Below are positions 21,498-48,502 of a stretch of DNA of 57,146 nt, one piece after another. Position numbers and translations under genes: made by a program. The stretch comes from Chroococcidiopsidaceae cyanobacterium CP_BM_ER_R8_30. Its GTDB lineage: Bacteria > Cyanobacteriota > Cyanobacteriia > Cyanobacteriales > Chroococcidiopsidaceae. Each line of letters begins with the position of its first letter. Within the stretch, counting starts at the first letter, position 1. Under the pieces are notes generated by a model. That model saw only the letters and a program-made list of their open reading frames with translations. It searched no databases and was not told where the DNA came from. Location of the stretch: assembly GCA_019244235.1 (NCBI GenBank), contig JAFASY010000180.1, forward strand, positions 1-57,146. The letters are read 5' to 3'.

Positions 21498-22985
21498 TTA
21501 TGAGTTTTGAGTATCAGGATGTTGCTTGAAGTGATTTAATTCGATTGGAAGATGAATGCTGAAACGGGTATTTCCCGGTTGGGAATACACATCAATATGA
21601 CCTCCATTACGAGTGACAATTTCATGGCTAATTGCCAATCCTAAGCCAGTTCCATCGGTTTTGGTGGAATAGAATGGGTCAAAGATATGTTTGCGATCGT
21701 GATTAGACAATCCTGGTCCCCGATCGTCTACCCAGGCAATGAACCAGTTCTGGTTTTCAGTATCTTTGGTCTGTTCCACACCTACTCTTACTGGTGTTCC
21801 ACTTGGACTTGCCTGAATCGCATTCAAGATCAAATTGACCATCACCTGCCCTAACTCCCGTCGCCGCAGCGGTACTTCTAGCAGCGAGGTAGCAGGCGTT
21901 ACATAGACCAGTTGCACATCCTGTTCTTCTGCTTTCAGCCGCAAGAGCGCCACAGATTCTTGAACAATCGCCTCGAATGAAGTAATGGAGAGCGCTTCCT
22001 GTTGCTGGTTCTGGTCAAAGTACAACAAACGTTGGACTAAATGTTCGAGCCGATCAACTTGCTCAATCAAGCTGGCGCTCGGCAGATCGGTAATTCCCTG
22101 CTTTTGGAGTTGGCGATCGGTGTATTGCAAATTCAGGCGGATGCTGGCAAGCGGATTACGGATTTCGTGAGCCACTCCAGCCACCAGTTGTCCCAATCCC
22201 GCTAACCGTTCCACACGATGGAGCCGTTGCTCTAACTTCTGTCGGCGTGATTGCATCGTATTAATCGCCGCTCCCAAAACCCCCATCTCCGCAGGCAGCA
22301 AGGGGATTTGTGCGGCTGGGTTTGCCTCCATTGCCTGAATGCTTTGCCGAAGTTGCTGAACGCCCCGTTGTAGTTGTAGCGCGATCGCGAAGGTCCACAC
22401 TCCCACAACCAAAATGCCAACTACCACCAATCCACTCAGGATCTTCTGCGGTCCATCTTTCGTTTGGGGCATCCGCTTCATAGTCCAAACCGCGCCCCAT
22501 AAGGGTAACGGCTCTGCCCGTAGCACTAAAATATCTAACCGCGGGTGTAGCACCAATTCTTGAGGGGTTCCCTGGCTAGTTGCTCGTCGAGACAGTTGCA
22601 AGATTTCATCTCGCTCAGCCGGAGGAATATCAGTTTTGGGAATGGGTCCGCCATGCGTGGGAAAGGCATATCCCAGCAGGCGATCCTGTTGGAGTAGGTA
22701 AAAGCCACCCTCCACGCGAGGAAAATTGCCTAACGCTTCAGTCGATAGTTCTCGCAGGCGGACATCCAGTTGGGCTGATATGCCGCTTTGATTCAAGTGC
22801 GACTCCCAATATAGTTTGATCAAGCGGGTGTTGGCACTGGCAAGTTCCCGTTGATTTCGGGCAACTACCGATCCCTCCAGACTCTCGATCAGTTGAAACA
22901 CAAGCCAGACAGCCAATCCTCCCAAACAGAGGAACAGCACTGCCAGAATCGTGAGTTGTCGTTGCAGGCTCCAGCGTTTCCGCAT
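21498..22985 (-). CDS. Membrane sensor histidine kinase of the sigma-54 operon
   Basis: 495 aa from the ATG at 22985. Two membrane helices (about 12-33 and 184-204) enclose a roughly 150-residue periplasmic sensor domain that I do not recognise. A HAMP-like linker, HisKA with His273 in AGVAHEIRNPLASIR, and a HATPase_c domain ([13 protein letters not shown]) follow. The HisKA style (HEIRNPL) is that of NtrB/ZraS/AtoS kinases, which pair with sigma-54 activators. It presumably phosphorylates Asp54 of the next gene product. A -24/-12 promoter lies 24 bp upstream of the predicted transcript start-to-ATG interval. HIP1 sits at 22381-22388. Confidence 0.93.
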   Translation of the reverse strand: MRKRWSLQRQLTILAVLFLCLGGLAVWLVFQLIESLEGSVVARNQRELASANTRLIKLYWESHLNQSGISAQLDVRLRELSTEALGNFPRVEGGFYLLQQDRLLGYAFPTHGGPIPKTDIPPAERDEILQLSRRATSQGTPQELVLHPRLDILVLRAEPLPLWGAVWTMKRMPQTKDGPQKILSGLVVVGILVVGVWTFAIALQLQRGVQQLRQSIQAMEANPAAQIPLLPAEMGVLGAAINTMQSRRQKLEQRLHRVERLAGLGQLVAGVAHEIRNPLASIRLNLQYTDRQLQKQGITDLPSASLIEQVDRLEHLVQRLLYFDQNQQQEALSITSFEAIVQESVALLRLKAEEQDVQLVYVTPATSLLEVPLRRRELGQVMVNLILNAIQASPSGTPVRVGVEQTKDTENQNWFIAWVDDRGPGLSNHDRKHIFDPFYSTKTDGTGLGLAISHEIVTRNGGHIDVYSQPGNTRFSIHLPIELNHFKQHPDTQNS

Positions 22986-23019: not shown

Positions 23020-23035
23020 TGCAAATGTCATGCCA
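23020..23035 (-). promoter_or_regulatory. Sigma-54 (-24/-12) promoter for the kinase-activator-rpoN operon
   Basis: On the minus strand the sequence reads TGGCATGACATTTGCA. It matches the -24/-12 consensus TGGCACGnnnnTTGCW at every defined position except T for C at the sixth base, with the exact 10-bp gap between GG and GC. It predicts transcription starting near 23009, giving a 24-nt leader to the kinase ATG at 22985. Because rpoN is in this operon, the module would drive its own expression. Confidence 0.85.
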
Positions 23036-23076
23036 ACGTTAGTATTCACGATTCATCTGCAATCCACCTGTATCTT

Positions 23077-23092
23077 TGGCATGATTTTTGCA
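23077..23092 (+). promoter_or_regulatory. Sigma-54 (-24/-12) promoter for the divergent membrane protein gene
   Basis: The plus strand reads TGGCATGATTTTTGCA, the same consensus match and spacing as the opposing promoter and identical to it in the first eight bases. Predicted start near 23103, leaving about 46 nt to the ATG at 23149. The two promoters face outward with 41 bp between them, leaving little room for enhancer sites, which suits an activator without a DNA-binding domain. Confidence 0.85.
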
Positions 23093-23148: not shown

Positions 23149-24093
23149 ATGCAGCCAACAAATGATTTCATTTCTGCCCAAGTTGCTCAGGAACTCCTAG
23201 CATTAGCATCCCATCTGGAGACCCAAAAACATCAAACCTATGTTCCGCTTGAGTTAATGCAGGCAGCAACTGAGGCAGGAATCTCTGTTGATACTCTGCA
23301 AGAGGCACTTCACCAGATGCAAGTTCGACAGGCTCAACAACAAGCCCGTCATCACCAATTGCGCTTGGTTCTGAGCAGTGGTTTGGCTGGAGTGGCAATC
23401 TCACTGTTAGGAGTTGGGGTATATGCAAAGCTGAATCAGCAACCCAGTCCAATTCCTCAATTTGCAGCAGATGCTGCCCCCAATCCGAATGAACTGATCG
23501 CCAATTCTCCAACTTCTGATGGTTATACGGCAACCTATACAGGCATTGTCCAACAATATCTCCTGAATCCTGAAGGTCAGGTGGATGGGTTACTGCTCAA
23601 AAATGGACTTCAGGCAAAAGTTCCACCCCATCTCAGCCAGGTATTAACGAATCTGGTGCACCCTGGAACTGAAATTAGCTTCAGCGGAACGCCTGGAACA
23701 CCATCTCGCTTTGGACAGGAAATTCGCACCCTCCAGATTGTTAACCGTCAAACCCAGCAATCGCTCTCCGTTCAGCCCCCGATCGCTCCTCCGCTCCCAC
23801 CGCTAGGTTCCAGCAACTATACTAACCTGTCTGCTGAAGGAACCGTTCAACACTGGCTAGTTGGACATCGAGGAGAACTCAATGGAGCAGTACTAGCATC
23901 GGGTGTACAAATCAAATTCGCTCCTCCAGTTGGTGAACAATTGCTCCCACTGATTCTGGGAAACGACACCATTCAAGTTCAAGGGTTTGGCGAGCGCAGT
24001 TCTTATGGCGAAGTGATTGAGGCAACCATGTTAAGCATCAATAGACAAACTGTACCAGTATCGCCTCCTAAAAAGCTCTCTAAGGAGAACTGA
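23149..24093 (+). CDS. Membrane-anchored protein with two OB-like repeats (likely sigma-54 target)
   Basis: 314 aa from the ATG at 23149, which has AGAGG upstream; the frame is open 10 codons further to a TTG. The helical cytoplasmic N-terminus (1-70) is followed by one membrane helix (about 71-94) and a linker. Two similar periplasmic domains come next: GIVQQYLLNPEGQVDGLLLKN (from about 126) and GTVQHWLVGHRGELNGAVLAS (from about 228). Each continues as a short beta-rich module resembling the small OB-fold envelope domains. Function is unknown. Its placement opposite the kinase operon, behind a matching promoter, suggests it is the output, or a feedback partner, of the signal the kinase senses. 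Confidence 0.75.
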   Translation: MQPTNDFISAQVAQELLALASHLETQKHQTYVPLELMQAATEAGISVDTLQEALHQMQVRQAQQQARHHQLRLVLSSGLAGVAISLLGVGVYAKLNQQPSPIPQFAADAAPNPNELIANSPTSDGYTATYTGIVQQYLLNPEGQVDGLLLKNGLQAKVPPHLSQVLTNLVHPGTEISFSGTPGTPSRFGQEIRTLQIVNRQTQQSLSVQPPIAPPLPPLGSSNYTNLSAEGTVQHWLVGHRGELNGAVLASGVQIKFAPPVGEQLLPLILGNDTIQVQGFGERSSYGEVIEATMLSINRQTVPVSPPKKLSKEN

Positions 24094-24636: not shown

Positions 24637-27600
24637 TCACCTACCACTGCGTCTTTTCCTATCTGGTTGCCCTCTCAAGGGCAAAACGTTACTTTCTGCC
24701 ACGGCTGTGTCGAACTCCACTGCACCTAGAGCTTTTAGCGTAGCTTTCTGAGCTGCGGTTAAACCTGTAACACCAGTGATGTTCATCCCCTCATAAGGTC
24801 TGGGGGGTTGCAACGTTAGTAGACACTTGCCACTCTCCACATCCCACTGCTTAATCGTCCCATCTAGGCTGCTACTAAAGAGAGTCCCCCCTTGAGGATG
24901 AAAAACCACTGACGAAATCATTCCCGTATGCCCTCGCAACGTTTTCAAGGTTTGTCCCGTACTCATTGACCACAACTTCACCAAGAAGTCGTCACTGCCA
25001 CTGGCGAGAATTTGACCATCTGGGCTGAAGGCAACTGAACTGACAAGACCATGATGACCCAGTAGCGTTGTTAGACAGGACCCGGTTGAGACATCCCACA
25101 ACTTCACACTAGAGTCAATGCTGCCACTGGCTAGCAGCTGACCCTGAGGACTGAAGGCGACGGACACGACTTGAGCGTTATGACCCAGTAATGTCTGTAA
25201 GCAGCTCCCTGTTTCCACATCCCACAACTTTATACTGGTATCATGACTCCCGCTGGCTAGTAGCTGACCATCGGGACTGAAGGTAACTGATTGAACCCAG
25301 TTGGTATGTCCTGACAGAGTGTTGAGGCATTGACCAGTGCTGCACACCCATAATTTGACGGTTTGGTCAATACTAGCTGTTGCCAGGAGTTGATCGTTGG
25401 GACTAAAGGCAATGATTCGGATGGGATGAGTGTGTCCGCGCAAAGTTATGTTGCACTCCCCAGTACTAACCGCACACAGCCTCACAGTACAATCATCGCT
25501 ACTACTCGCTAACAGGCGACCGTTCGAGTTGAAAGTGACTGACTGAATCCGACTGGAATGACCGCTAAAAGTTTTGAACAACCGTTCTTGACTCACTGAC
25601 CATAACCTCACCACAGCATCATCACCGCCACTGGCAAGCAATTGGCCATCAGGACTACAAGCAACGGACCAAACTTGATTGGTATAGCCTTGCAGGGTTT
25701 TCACTAGCCTTCCCGTACTGATATCCCACAACCTGACGCTTTGGTCATCACTGCTGCTAGCAACGGTTTGACCATCAGGACTACAGCTAACATGCCAAAT
25801 TCGATCGGTATGCCCCTGTAACTTTCTTAGGCACTTGCCATTCGAGATGTCCCACACCCTCACCATCCGATCCGCACTGCCGCTAACTAGGATATAAGCC
25901 TGAGGACTGAAGGCAATTGTATGCACCCAGTCGCTATCTCCTTGCAGAGTGGTATAGCATAAGCCAGTTGGGACATGCCAGAGTTTAATGGTTTTGTCAC
26001 TACTGCCACTGGCTAGAATCGTCCCTTCACGGTTGAAGGCAAGTGACCACACCTCTCCGGTGTGTCCCTGTAAGGTCTGGCGGCAAAGACCTTCAGACAC
26101 ATCCCACAACTTCAGACTAGCATCGGAACCGCCACTGGCAAGTGTAGTCCCATCCGGACTGAAGGCAATAGAGCGGACATAACCAGTATGCCCCTCCAGG
26201 ATGCGCAGACCTTCCCCAGTGCGCACATCCCAGAGCCGCACCACCGGGTCGGCACCGCAACTGGCTAGAGTGTGACCGTCAGGGCTGAAGCTGACTGAGA
26301 TGATCGTATTACTATGTCCATGTAAGGTGCTCAAGCACTGACCAGTACGAACATCCCACACCTTCACGGTGGGCTCTTGACTGCCACTAGCCAACTTCGT
26401 CCCGTCCGGACTAAAAGCAACTGCCCAGAGCCAAGTTCCATGGAGGCAGGTCAGTAGTTGTTTGCCATCTACTACTTGCCACAAGCAGAGCTGTCCGCTT
26501 GTGTCACCTGTTGCTAGCAGCTTGCCATCTGGGCTAAAGGCGACTGACAAAATTCCACCTAGAGTTTGGGTAAACACCGAACGAGCTAAATCAGCATTAG
26601 TAAAATTCACATCATGCAGGTTAACGTCCTGCAGGTAGGCTTGCCAAACTGCCAGTTCCGAAAAGTCATAGCTGGTCAAATCAATTTGACATTGCCGCAA
26701 TAAGTTAATCAGATTCCCGGCTCCATAACCAGGTAATGCCGCATAGTCTGTTTGCAGTTTGAAGAGAATTTGCTTCAGCTTAGATTCAATATGCTTATTC
26801 GTTCTTAAGAACCTCTGCAGTTGCGCTACCAGTACCTCCAAAACAACGCGAACTTGACTGGCTCTGACATAGTCTTTTGCCTGGGCTTTAATCAAAGAGT
26901 GGCTCATTAGTAACCCAATTGACTCTGTAGTAATCTCTTGGCAAACCTGTTCGAGCAGCTTCTCAGTCATGTATTCCATCACCGCTGGTTGCTGAGTGAA
27001 GCCAGAGGCGCTGGGCTCAATCAGCGAGCGCCTCTGCAAAGACGCCAGCGCCTCTAGGATTTCTCCAGGGCGAACGTTCGAGACCAAGTCGGCTTGTAAA
27101 TCCGGAAAAGTCACTGGTTCCCGCTCCAGCGCCAGCCAGTACATCACCTCTGTTTCTAAATCTGTTAGGCGCTCGAATTGTCGGTCTAACAAGTTGCGGA
27201 TATCTTGGAAAACTAACGTTCCTTGTGCCAACAATTCCAAGAATCTAGCAACAATACTATCAAATAAGTCGCGAATGGCTGGAGCTACCATCTTTAAGGC
27301 TAGGGGATTCCCGGCATAATGTTCGACCAAAGTTCGCCATTCGGCTTCTGAGGCGACAAACTCACCTCTCGCTTGAAACATCTCCCTGGCTACTGCTATC
27401 GGTAACCCGGCCAAATGTAATGAACGTGCAGGCAATGTCTCACCCGCTCTCACCTCCCAACCCCTGGGCTGCTCGCGACTAGTCAGGAGCAAGCAACTGT
27501 GATGAGCTGTTTCAGCCACACATCTGAGGAGTTGACCATAACCGGAATAGCCTTCGCGGTAGCAACCCGTACTCTCACCACTGCTGAGGATGGTTTCGGC

Positions 27601-28287
27601 GTTATCCAGTATCAGCAGACAGCGCCAGGAGCGCAAGTATTCAATCACTCGCAAAACTCTACCTTCTACAGTTTCTGGTAAAGCTATTTCTTGCTGCTGG
27701 GAAAGAAATTGAATCAGCTCGGCTAACAGGTCTTGAACTGGTGGGGCATTCCGTAGACTTCTCCAGAACAGAAACTCAAACTGGTCTTGAATCCGTTGAG
27801 TAATGCTGACTGCCAAAGCCGTTTTACCAATCCCACCCATGCCAAACAGCCCCACTAAGCGACAGTGGTCTTGCACTATCCACTGTTCTAGGGTTTCCAG
27901 TTCGGCAGTGCGTCCGTAGAAGACAGGTAAATCAACTGCATCTCCCCAATCTTGGTGCTTATTAGCACTTGTCCTGACAGAGACGCTCACCTTCGGAGCA
28001 ACTGCTTGAATTAGTTGCGCTTCTTCGGCAATGAGTTTGCCTTGACATTGCAGCAAGACTGAGTGGAGATTTTTTTTAGTGACCCTCTGCCCAAAGCTTT
28101 CTGAGAGGAGCTGCCATAGTTGCGCTCCAGCAACCCTGATATAGCCCAAGTCATACCCACAAGTACTAGCAATCTCCTGATAAGACTGTTCTAACCAACA
28201 GAGCCGAAATATTGTCTCTTGAATTTTGTTCAGATGTTTGGGCTCTATGATCCTTTGGACAATTACTAGTGCTTCTTCAACGTTCAT
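24637..28287 (-). CDS. STAND NTPase with 14 WD40 repeats
   Basis: 1216 aa. The N-terminal helical region (about 1-85, [20 protein letters not shown]) resembles the HTH-like head of cyanobacterial STAND proteins. An NB-ARC ATPase follows: P-loop [13 protein letters not shown] (about 147-159), Walker [11 protein letters not shown] and a GNPLALK motif. A pentapeptide-like stretch ([16 protein letters not shown]) leads into 14 WD40 repeats (about residues 580-1165), enough for two seven-bladed propellers. These proteins are thought to be signal-triggered oligomerising switches, in some cases in phage defence or cell death. No separate effector domain is visible, so the output is unknown. Confidence 0.92.
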
Positions 28288-38551: not shown

Positions 38552-38633
38552 CCGAACAAATTGGGGTCAACCTCCCCTAGCTGCAAATCTGCTAAGCCGT
38601 ACTCAGCCCAACGCCGCTCTACCATCGTCGCCA
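38537..38633. repeat. Left copy of the 97-bp ubiD 3'-end direct repeat
   Basis: Matches 46995-47091 in the same orientation at 93 of 97 positions. It holds the last codons of ubiD (read on the minus strand) but no functional ubiD gene, and supplies the stop codon of the flavin reductase gene. Together the two copies bracket an 8.36-kb segment. Confidence 0.9.
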
Positions 38634-46994: not shown

Positions 46995-47091
46995 CATCAC
47001 ACATCGTAGCCAAACAAATTGGGGTCAACCTCCCCTAGCTGCAAATCTGCTAAGCCGTACTCAGCCCAACGCCGCTCTACCATTGCTGCCA
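46995..47091. repeat. Right (original) copy of the 97-bp ubiD 3'-end repeat
   Basis: The true 3' end of ubiD. The left copy at 38537-38633 differs at four positions only. Confidence 0.9.
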
Positions 47092-48502
47092 CACCTGAAT
47101 CGGATTCCAGAACCTCTCCCCAAGCATGCTCTGTTTCAGGAGGAATCTTGGTGGTAGCATCAATCCCCATCCGACCACCTAAGCCGATTTTCTCACTAGC
47201 AAAATCTAGGGTGTCAAAAGGGGTATTAGGCAAAATAAACACGTCCCGTGTTGGGTCCACCTTGGAACTAATAGCCCACACCACCTGCCTGGGATCTCGG
47301 ATGTTGATGGTTTTATCTACTACAATCACAAACTTGGTATAGGTGAATTGCGGTAGGGCACTCCAGAAGGCAAGAGCCGCACGCCGGGCTTGTCCGGGAT
47401 AGGCTTTGTCGATAGAAATAATCGCCGCTTTATAACTAAGGGCTTCCATCGGCAAGAAGAAGTCAACAATTTCTGAGACTTGTTGCCGCAGGATTGGGGT
47501 GTAAATCCGGTTGAGGGCGATCGCCATCATTGCCTCTTCTTTCGGCGGACGACCACTAAAAGTCGTCAAGTAGATCGGATTTTTCCGGTGAGTCATACAT
47601 TGGAAGTGAATCACTGGCGAATCCTCCACGCCACCGTAATAGCCCATATGATCGCCAAAGGGGCCATCTGGCAGCACTTCCCCTGGCGTAATCCTACCTT
47701 CCAAAACGAACTCTGAATCGGCTGGGACTTCTAAATCGACAGTTTTACACTTAGCTAGTTGTACCCCAGACCCTCCATAAAGACCAGCAAATAGCCACTC
47801 TGATAGGTCTACTGGGATGGGTGTCGCAGCTGCCATGATAATTAAAGGGTCAACACCGAGGGCGATCGCTACCTCCAACTGCTGCCCGCGCTCAGCCGCT
47901 TTACGCAGATGCCGTGCTCCACCCCGCACCGACAACCAGTGGACTGTCATGGAGGAGCCCGATTGCAACTGTAGCCGATACACCCCCACGTTCGGCGTCC
48001 CAGTCTCGCAATCTTTCGTAATGACTAAACCCAGCGTGATAATTTTACCCGCGTCACCTGGATAAGGACGAATCAATGGCAACTGCGTCAGATCCAGCTC
48101 CTTACCCTGAATCACCACTTGTTGACAAGCAGGGAAAAAGTCACGTCCTGGTTTTGCCTTTAGGACGTCAAACAGCACCTTGCCAAATTCCACTGCCTGG
48201 GAAATTTTCTTCGGCGGCTTAGGCTGTTGCAGCATACCTAGTTTTTTCCCCAGAGCTTCTAGCTCCTCCGGTTGCTGCATATTCATTGCCCAGCAAATCC
48301 GTTCTACTGTACCCATCAAGTTAATTGCGACAGGATAGGCTGCACCTTTGACGTTTTCAAATAGCAGTCCTGGACCACCTCGTTGTAGCATTCGATTGGA
48401 AATTTCAGCAATTTCTAAGTCTGGATCGACCAGCGCCTCAATCCGTCGCAATTGCCCCCGCTCTTCCAGCAGTTTTAGGAATCCTCGTAAATCTCTTGCC
48501 AT
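46997..48502 (-). CDS. UbiD family decarboxylase
   Basis: 501 aa, standard UbiD length. It starts MARDLRGFLKLLEERGQLRRI and has the prenyl-FMN binding segments (GVYRLQLQSGSSMTVHW, then the catalytic E-x-x-x-R-E region read as LEGRITPGEVLPDGPFGDHMGYYGG). UbiD enzymes need prenylated FMN made by a UbiX partner, which is not in this window. In cyanobacteria the likely role is decarboxylation in plastoquinone synthesis from 4-hydroxybenzoate, but other aromatic acids are possible. Its 3' end is duplicated 8.5 kb upstream. Confidence 0.93.
   Translation of the reverse strand: MARDLRGFLKLLEERGQLRRIEALVDPDLEIAEISNRMLQRGGPGLLFENVKGAAYPVAINLMGTVERICWAMNMQQPEELEALGKKLGMLQQPKPPKKISQAVEFGKVLFDVLKAKPGRDFFPACQQVVIQGKELDLTQLPLIRPYPGDAGKIITLGLVITKDCETGTPNVGVYRLQLQSGSSMTVHWLSVRGGARHLRKAAERGQQLEVAIALGVDPLIIMAAATPIPVDLSEWLFAGLYGGSGVQLAKCKTVDLEVPADSEFVLEGRITPGEVLPDGPFGDHMGYYGGVEDSPVIHFQCMTHRKNPIYLTTFSGRPPKEEAMMAIALNRIYTPILRQQVSEIVDFFLPMEALSYKAAIISIDKAYPGQARRAALAFWSALPQFTYTKFVIVVDKTINIRDPRQVVWAISSKVDPTRDVFILPNTPFDTLDFASEKIGLGGRMGIDATTKIPPETEHAWGEVLESDSGVAAMVERRWAEYGLADLQLGEVDPNLFGYDV

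Follow-up and report, generated by a model that had tools for sequence, protein, structure and literature searches.

Probable divergent sigma-54 promoters of a compact rpoN-containing circuit in a few cyanobacteria

The genome of the Chroococcidiopsidaceae cyanobacterium CP_BM_ER_R8_30 carries, between a kinase-activator-rpoN operon and its divergent neighbour, two -24/-12 elements that very probably form the divergent sigma-54 promoter pair of a compact, self-contained circuit present in a few cyanobacteria. Throughout, the window denotes the whole 57,146-nucleotide stretch of contig JAFASY010000180.1 that was analysed. Sigma-54 is described as absent from 29 cyanobacterial genomes in a passage of one report (PMC3162934), and a passage of a 2024 survey assigns only sigma-70 genes to the cyanobacterial genomes analysed so far (PMC11119718), similarly to a passage of PMC4181335. 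Exceptions are named in one sentence from 2025, Gloeocapsa sp. PCC 7428 and Leptolyngbya sp. O-77, which like the organism studied here are cyanobacteria with rpoN; the passages of that paper on them describe no promoters, regulon or operon (PMC12316311). No description of a cyanobacterial sigma-54 regulon was found in the literature searched, most subscription papers lying outside its reach. The wider finding, as read from sequence comparison, is a rare self-contained sigma-54 circuit with an apparently small regulon, self-regulation that is conserved in part, and visible signs of decay. A conserved circuit of this kind with identifiable promoters would change the sigma-70-only picture of cyanobacteria. 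The features of the locus are collected in Table 1.

Table 1. Predicted promoters and genes of the circuit in the window, with candidate sites on contig C175 of the same genome
Feature	Position	Strand	Remarks
Putative sigma-54 -24/-12 promoter TGGCATGACATTTGCA, kinase-activator-rpoN operon	23020..23035	minus	predicted start 23009; counterpart in Nostoc loci
Putative sigma-54 -24/-12 promoter TGGCATGATTTTTGCA, divergent gene	23077..23092	plus	predicted start 23103; counterparts in Nostoc loci, G618 and G641
Membrane histidine kinase, 495 aa	21498..22985	minus	HisKA, HATPase_c
NtrC-type sigma-54 activator, 389 aa	20312..21481	minus	receiver, AAA+ with GAFTGA, lid; without C-terminal DNA-binding domain
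rpoN (sigma-54), 446 aa	18975..20315	minus	AID, core-binding and DNA-binding domains; 4-bp overlap with activator gene
Divergent gene, 314-aa membrane protein	23149..24093	plus	two OB-like repeats, no known family
Candidate site on C175 before OB247	30 bp upstream		followed on the same strand by MFS, PHB-depolymerase-like esterase, second MFS, permease
Candidate site on C175 before OB134	165 bp upstream		site overlaps end of permease gene; followed by YdcZ-type protein, OB236, LipP1-type lipase
Candidate site on C175 before GDT1/OFeT-like protein	192 bp upstream

A preliminary description had placed two near-consensus 16-mers with few differences, 41 bp apart and pointing outward, in this gap; their positions are exact, their separation and orientation are as claimed, and they differ at 2 of 16 bases. 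Each has TGGC and TTGC elements with canonical spacing upstream of a start codon, the minus motif lying 34 bp from the kinase ATG (22985) and the plus motif 56 bp from the divergent ATG (23149), distances as sensible as had been asserted, and the predicted starts are a consequence of the usual -12 geometry. The mechanical ORF list gives a TTG at 23024, which overlaps the minus motif; the Nostoc homologues favour the kinase ATG at 22985. That a chance origin is very unlikely was also upheld. Exact TGGCAYGNNNNTTGCA occurs 2 times in the window against 0.027 expected under a first-order Markov model, and some 2e-9 pairs are expected in the gap under a Markov model, both expectations referring to a pattern picked after the sites were seen. 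With one mismatch allowed the window still holds just these 2 sites and 16 of 100 shuffles also reach 2, so the strength of the observation lies in exactness and position. Under a matrix derived from other genomes only, the two sites are the top scorers of the window, at 25.7 and 17.9 bits, the next place reaching 13.8 bits. A search for enhancer sites found that the inverted repeats of the gap are mainly the two promoters themselves, those in Nostoc being mostly low-complexity repeats, and a simple consensus scan of the divergent gap detected no sigma-70-like promoter.

The three regulatory genes encode recognizable components of a sigma-54 system. The window RpoN scores above the Pfam cut-offs for all three domains (AID 27.8, CBD 127.8 and DBD 106.7 bits), is the sole PF04552 match in its genome, and carries the RpoN box ARRTVMKYR, compared with TRRTVTKYR in Nostoc and ARRTVAKYR in solved sigma-54. 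RpoN of N. calcicola FACHB-3891 and of PA-18-2419 is 58-59% identical to it, and for N. calcicola the AID is absent from the Pfam matches at E 0.05. The best model for the window protein is the NCBIfam equivalog TIGR02395, at 249.2 bits beneath a cut-off of 277.35, which we read as divergence of this RpoN rather than as membership of another family. The activator combines a PF00072 receiver with a PF00158 AAA+ domain, its GAFTGA motif being seen in the alignment. No other full-length PF00158 protein occurs in the genome, where five weaker matches are partial; this model also matches in 14 of 14 control genomes, archaea included. The activator ends after the AAA+ lid, in place of a 46-residue C-terminal tail common to six relatives, in which no Fis-type or other Pfam domain was recognised. 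The absence of a DNA-binding domain in the sole activator of a genome is the combination by which FlgR and CtcC are grouped here, and the window protein shows it. The structure model of the kinase had too low a confidence (pLDDT 49).

The divergent protein matches no Pfam or NCBIfam family. It has a helical N-terminus and, from its sequence, one likely membrane helix, and its two repeats were modelled, with modest confidence, as beta-beta-beta-alpha-beta-beta units similar to OB folds (pLDDT 57 for the whole protein and about 61-83 per block within the repeats). Foldseek returned two matches for this model at E<=0.001, both to Thermus SSB with low TM-scores, the remainder being mainly other OB folds; given these scores and the modest model, the protein is assigned by fold class only. 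A sequence search matched 74 of 243 genomes, nearly all over the N-terminal region only; among the matches listed, those covering the repeat region outside G000 were just G498 and G431, and G618, G641 and G643 were not among them. The N-terminal 100 residues (window 23149-23450, comprising the helices and the membrane helix) are common across the order in proteins that lack the OB repeats. Adjoining the divergent gene, at 24637-28287 on the minus strand, is a 1216-aa protein with a P-loop NTPase part and, by eye, WD40-like repeats.

Genes for RpoN proved rare among the cyanobacteria sampled. In a draw from the phylum PF04552 matched 12 of 386 genomes, 3 of them above the cut-off: the window's genome (full), G125 (a remnant) and G224 (a marginal partial match, 23.1 bits over 48 positions). 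G224 and the nine matches below the cut-off were judged to be chance, except G005, a deletion scar. A profile of the window and two Nostoc RpoN matched 9 of 388 genomes drawn from the order, seven with full-length genes (G000, G643, G641, G618, G419, G441 and G430) and two with broken ones (G654 and G125), and 2 of 388 drawn from the class, both already known; these three draws share genomes. Named genomes were also scanned, by a method that detects only close relatives, and yielded three Nostoc loci, in N. calcicola FACHB-3891, which apparently corresponds to G643 of the order draw, in PA-18-2419, and in the MAG JL34, which apparently corresponds to G654 and in which rpoN is broken.

All three Nostoc loci share a gene order of divergent OB gene, kinase, activator and rpoN, followed on the other strand by a CitMHS/ArsB-type permease and an MFS gene. 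Loss of both motifs in homologues that keep the genes had been named as one observation that would speak against the promoters; both are kept in all three loci, and a third site precedes the MFS-permease pair. The spacer between the divergent sites varies (182, 216 and 57 bp), and the distance from motif to ATG is identical in 3 of 3 loci (41 bp for OB, 26 bp for the kinase, 49 bp for MFS). G618, from another family, has three sites, the divergent ones back to back and 26 bp apart, flanked by OB-permease and, on the opposite side, by MFS-kinase-activator-rpoN; its operon-side sites stand some 660-900 bp before the MFS reading frame. The frame behind those operon-side sites (L070 15330-15770, minus) has a signal-peptide-like start and a Pro-rich tail and is interrupted by a stop codon. 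G641 has sites before its OB and MFS genes. The three g144 genomes (G419, G441 and G430), whose gene neighbourhood differs from that of the window, have one site each, TGGCATCNTTTTTGCA, which in G441, the one for which ORFs were listed, precedes a 143-aa Pro-rich protein. When one matrix, partly trained on these same sites, was applied to 237,337 bases, the scores were two-peaked, with 23 places reaching at least 18 bits, none between 15 and 18, and 10 between 12 and 15. MFS homologues were found in 6 of 243 genomes and included four loci without rpoN, of which L159 was dropped as having no upstream DNA; upstream of the homologues in the other three genomes without detected rpoN (G477, G487 and G435, the last classed so through its inferred inclusion among the 388 order-draw genomes) no place exceeded 9.8 bits.

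The proposal that rpoN is transcribed by its own product held in part. The Nostoc loci share the arrangement, and G618 plausibly does too; no kinase-side site above 9 bits was detected in G641 or in the three g144 genomes, and the feedback loop would therefore belong to part of the family. In the window's genome, the position of the minus site makes self-activation of rpoN likely.

It had also been proposed that few sites elsewhere in the genome would indicate a dedicated regulon; among the loci examined, three plausible sites remain besides the window pair, all on C175 (Table 1). Genome-wide, TGGCAYGNNNNTTGCW occurs 9 times versus 2 for the reversed control, 5 of the 9 being the two window sites and the three on C175; near matches with up to 2 mismatches number 93 versus 33. 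From these 93 places, 24 near-consensus loci were examined besides the window pair: 18 fall inside mechanical ORFs of at least 120 aa, 1 row was dropped for a wrong coordinate, and 5 are intergenic, namely the three C175 sites, before plausible targets, and L044 and L053, which have no ORF of at least 80 aa within 260 bp. The divergent protein has three paralogues on C175, OB134, OB236 and OB247, and two of the three sites there precede one of them. Strand and spacing suggest that the C175 genes following each site belong to its operon. The YdcZ-type protein of C175 is identical at 129 of 147 residues (88%) to one in G641, whose gene lies behind TGGCATGATTTTTGCA on a different contig from rpoN. 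Pro-rich stretches recur in OB134, OB236, the g144 protein and the interrupted frame of G618.

Genome-wide counts as such were set aside as proof: exact TGGCAYRNNNTTTGCA occurs 0-4 times per genome with and without rpoN alike, among 27 genomes (7 with full-length rpoN, 18 without and 2 with a broken gene). The difference lies in the place of the exact matches and not in their number. Matches at circuit loci amount to 4 of 4 in G000, 3 of 4 in each of G618, G643 and G641, 3 of 3 in G654, 0 of 1 in G441 and 0 of 2 in G125, and G419 and G430 have none because the g144 site departs from the pattern. TGGCATATCTATTGCA is frequent in N. calcicola (G643), several copies lying at contig bases 76-91, and is probably a contig-end repeat rather than a set of promoters.

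Several relatives display what appear to be stages of loss. G125 retains the C-terminal part of rpoN and a fragment of the MFS gene, kinase and activator were not found within the 19.9-kb stretch examined, and its MFS promoter, TGGCACGATTATTTGC, has a 1-bp spacer insertion relative to Nostoc. In G005 and G453 a short stretch separates a response-regulator gene from comM, an order read in G005; one end of the stretch matches the promoter region of G441 and, in G005, the other matches the 3' end of G441 rpoN, regions that are 8.4 kb apart in G441. This scar is read from sequence matches, in which 6 of 14 genomes matched and G453 matched both parts of the G005 stretch at 90-92%, a multiple alignment of it being uninformative. 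In the G005 relic site, TGACATCATTTTTGCA, the -24 GG is changed. From the G125 remnants and the G005/G453 scar, the ancestors of these three genomes most likely had the sigma-54 system and then lost it. In JL34 rpoN is interrupted, yet all three sites are intact, which counts against strict co-loss. The JL34 gene (L058 7995-8813) runs into tandem-repeat-like sequence resembling repeats just downstream of rpoN in N. calcicola (L056 9283-9825); the repeat seems to have broken rpoN, or the MAG is misassembled there. Both g2 genomes keep two exact sites (G005:C53:4860, G005:C85:4415 and the G453 counterparts) despite having only a deletion scar of rpoN; of the two in G005, one is inside an ORF and the other about 530 bp before a secreted-protein-like gene.

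Such losses raise the alternative that the sites are genuine sigma-54 promoters of a circuit that is itself decaying in the window's genome, with a tail-less activator that no longer works. The missing tail could represent loss of function, six relatives having kept it, and in other genomes the system has been broken (G654, G125) or deleted (G005, G453). We nevertheless consider this reading improbable: none of the three regulatory ORFs is interrupted, the proteins retain GAFTGA, the receiver and the RpoN box, both sites of the window and all three on C175 are undamaged, and H. pylori FlgR works without a DNA-binding domain, activating without binding DNA, according to a passage of PMC3930126. 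Less probable still is that the 16-mers serve as operators for some other regulator. In its favour, each forms a weak imperfect inverted repeat and the two are inverted relative to each other; against this stand the match to the -24/-12 consensus with fixed spacing beside the only rpoN, the near-constant distance to the start codon within Nostoc, and the damage to relic sites where rpoN has been lost. The original assignment of the 16-mers as sigma-54 promoters is strongly supported by comparative evidence: the operon next to the sites contains the genome's only rpoN, the sites persist in Nostoc and G618, and the G125 and G005 relics are damaged.

A tree comparing 8 RpoN sequences from cyanobacteria with 8 from elsewhere gathers the cyanobacterial proteins into a single clade (100/100) with a long stem (2.59). 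Its program flags a possible long-branch join with Aerococcus, so the tree gives no reliable sister group. That the rpoN block contaminates the assembly or was imported very recently from another phylum, as the reported absence of sigma-54 from 29 cyanobacterial genomes (PMC3162934) might suggest, is scarcely credible, since psaC and glmS (named from sequence) on the window contig identify the host as a cyanobacterium, the GC3 of the block is close to that of its neighbours, the same block occurs in named Nostoc contigs, and all eight cyanobacterial RpoN fall into the one fully supported clade.

We propose that the promoter pair operates within the following circuit. The membrane kinase would sense a signal and phosphorylate the neighbouring NtrC-type activator in a presumed phosphorelay; the activator, having no DNA-binding domain, would form a ring in solution and, using ATP, open the sigma-54 polymerase poised at a small number of -24/-12 promoters. 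One of these would drive the kinase-activator-rpoN operon, which the minus site precedes, and so create positive feedback. The others would drive the divergent OB-repeat membrane protein and its C175 paralogues, along with MFS, CitMHS/ArsB-type, YdcZ-type and GDT1/OFeT-like membrane proteins and esterases. For basal expression of rpoN a sigma-70-type promoter would be needed. By analogy, the missing activator tail suggests enhancer-independent activation: a single activator in the cell would need no enhancer for specificity, and the 41-bp gap would leave little room for one. We can only guess that the circuit acts at the envelope against a small-molecule or ion stress, by export or by protection. 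Somewhat short of even confidence goes to the fuller reading, in which a circuit of single origin keeps a sigma factor private to one two-component system, acts as a unit of kinase, sole activator, sigma factor and few promoters, works with the unusual cyanobacterial polymerase, is enhancer-free in the window's lineage, is subject to positive feedback and has been lost piecemeal together with its promoters. In such a minimal system, with one sigma factor, one activator and few promoters, sigma-54 would have to work with the cyanobacterial polymerase. The promoters of the circuit could serve in phototrophs as a tightly switched set, and the relics of the circuit would show how a sigma factor and its promoters disappear.

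Self-regulated rpoN, as proposed for the window, is found in other phyla in Geobacter sulfurreducens and Dokdonia. There rpoN serves broad regulons with many activators, unlike the window circuit with its one kinase-activator pair and handful of predicted promoters. A closer arrangement is E. coli zraP/zraSR, which, as tabulated in PMC8743547, also has a kinase-activator operon, a divergent gene for a membrane/periplasmic protein and an RpoN site between them; ZraR can autoregulate zraSR, as stated in a passage of PMC12316311. The window differs in that its operon contains rpoN, its divergent protein has OB repeats and its activator is without a DNA-binding domain. The window proteins score below the ZraS and ZraR equivalogs (168 of 479 and 397 of 760 bits), and the divergent protein, with OB-like repeats and no Pfam/NCBIfam match, is not assigned to ZraP. 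H. pylori FlgS/FlgR and Chlamydia CtcB/CtcC resemble the window in having an activator without a C-terminal DNA-binding domain, according to passages of PMC3930126 and PMC7482065; they belong to other phyla and have other targets, whereas the window has kinase, activator and rpoN in one predicted self-regulated operon.

Elsewhere in the window, ORFs at 38561-38630 and 47019-47085, both on the plus strand, share the starting residues MGSTSPSCKSAKPYSAQRRSTI and represent a duplicated fragment; the ORF at 47019-47085 is antisense to the end of the gene at 46997-48502.
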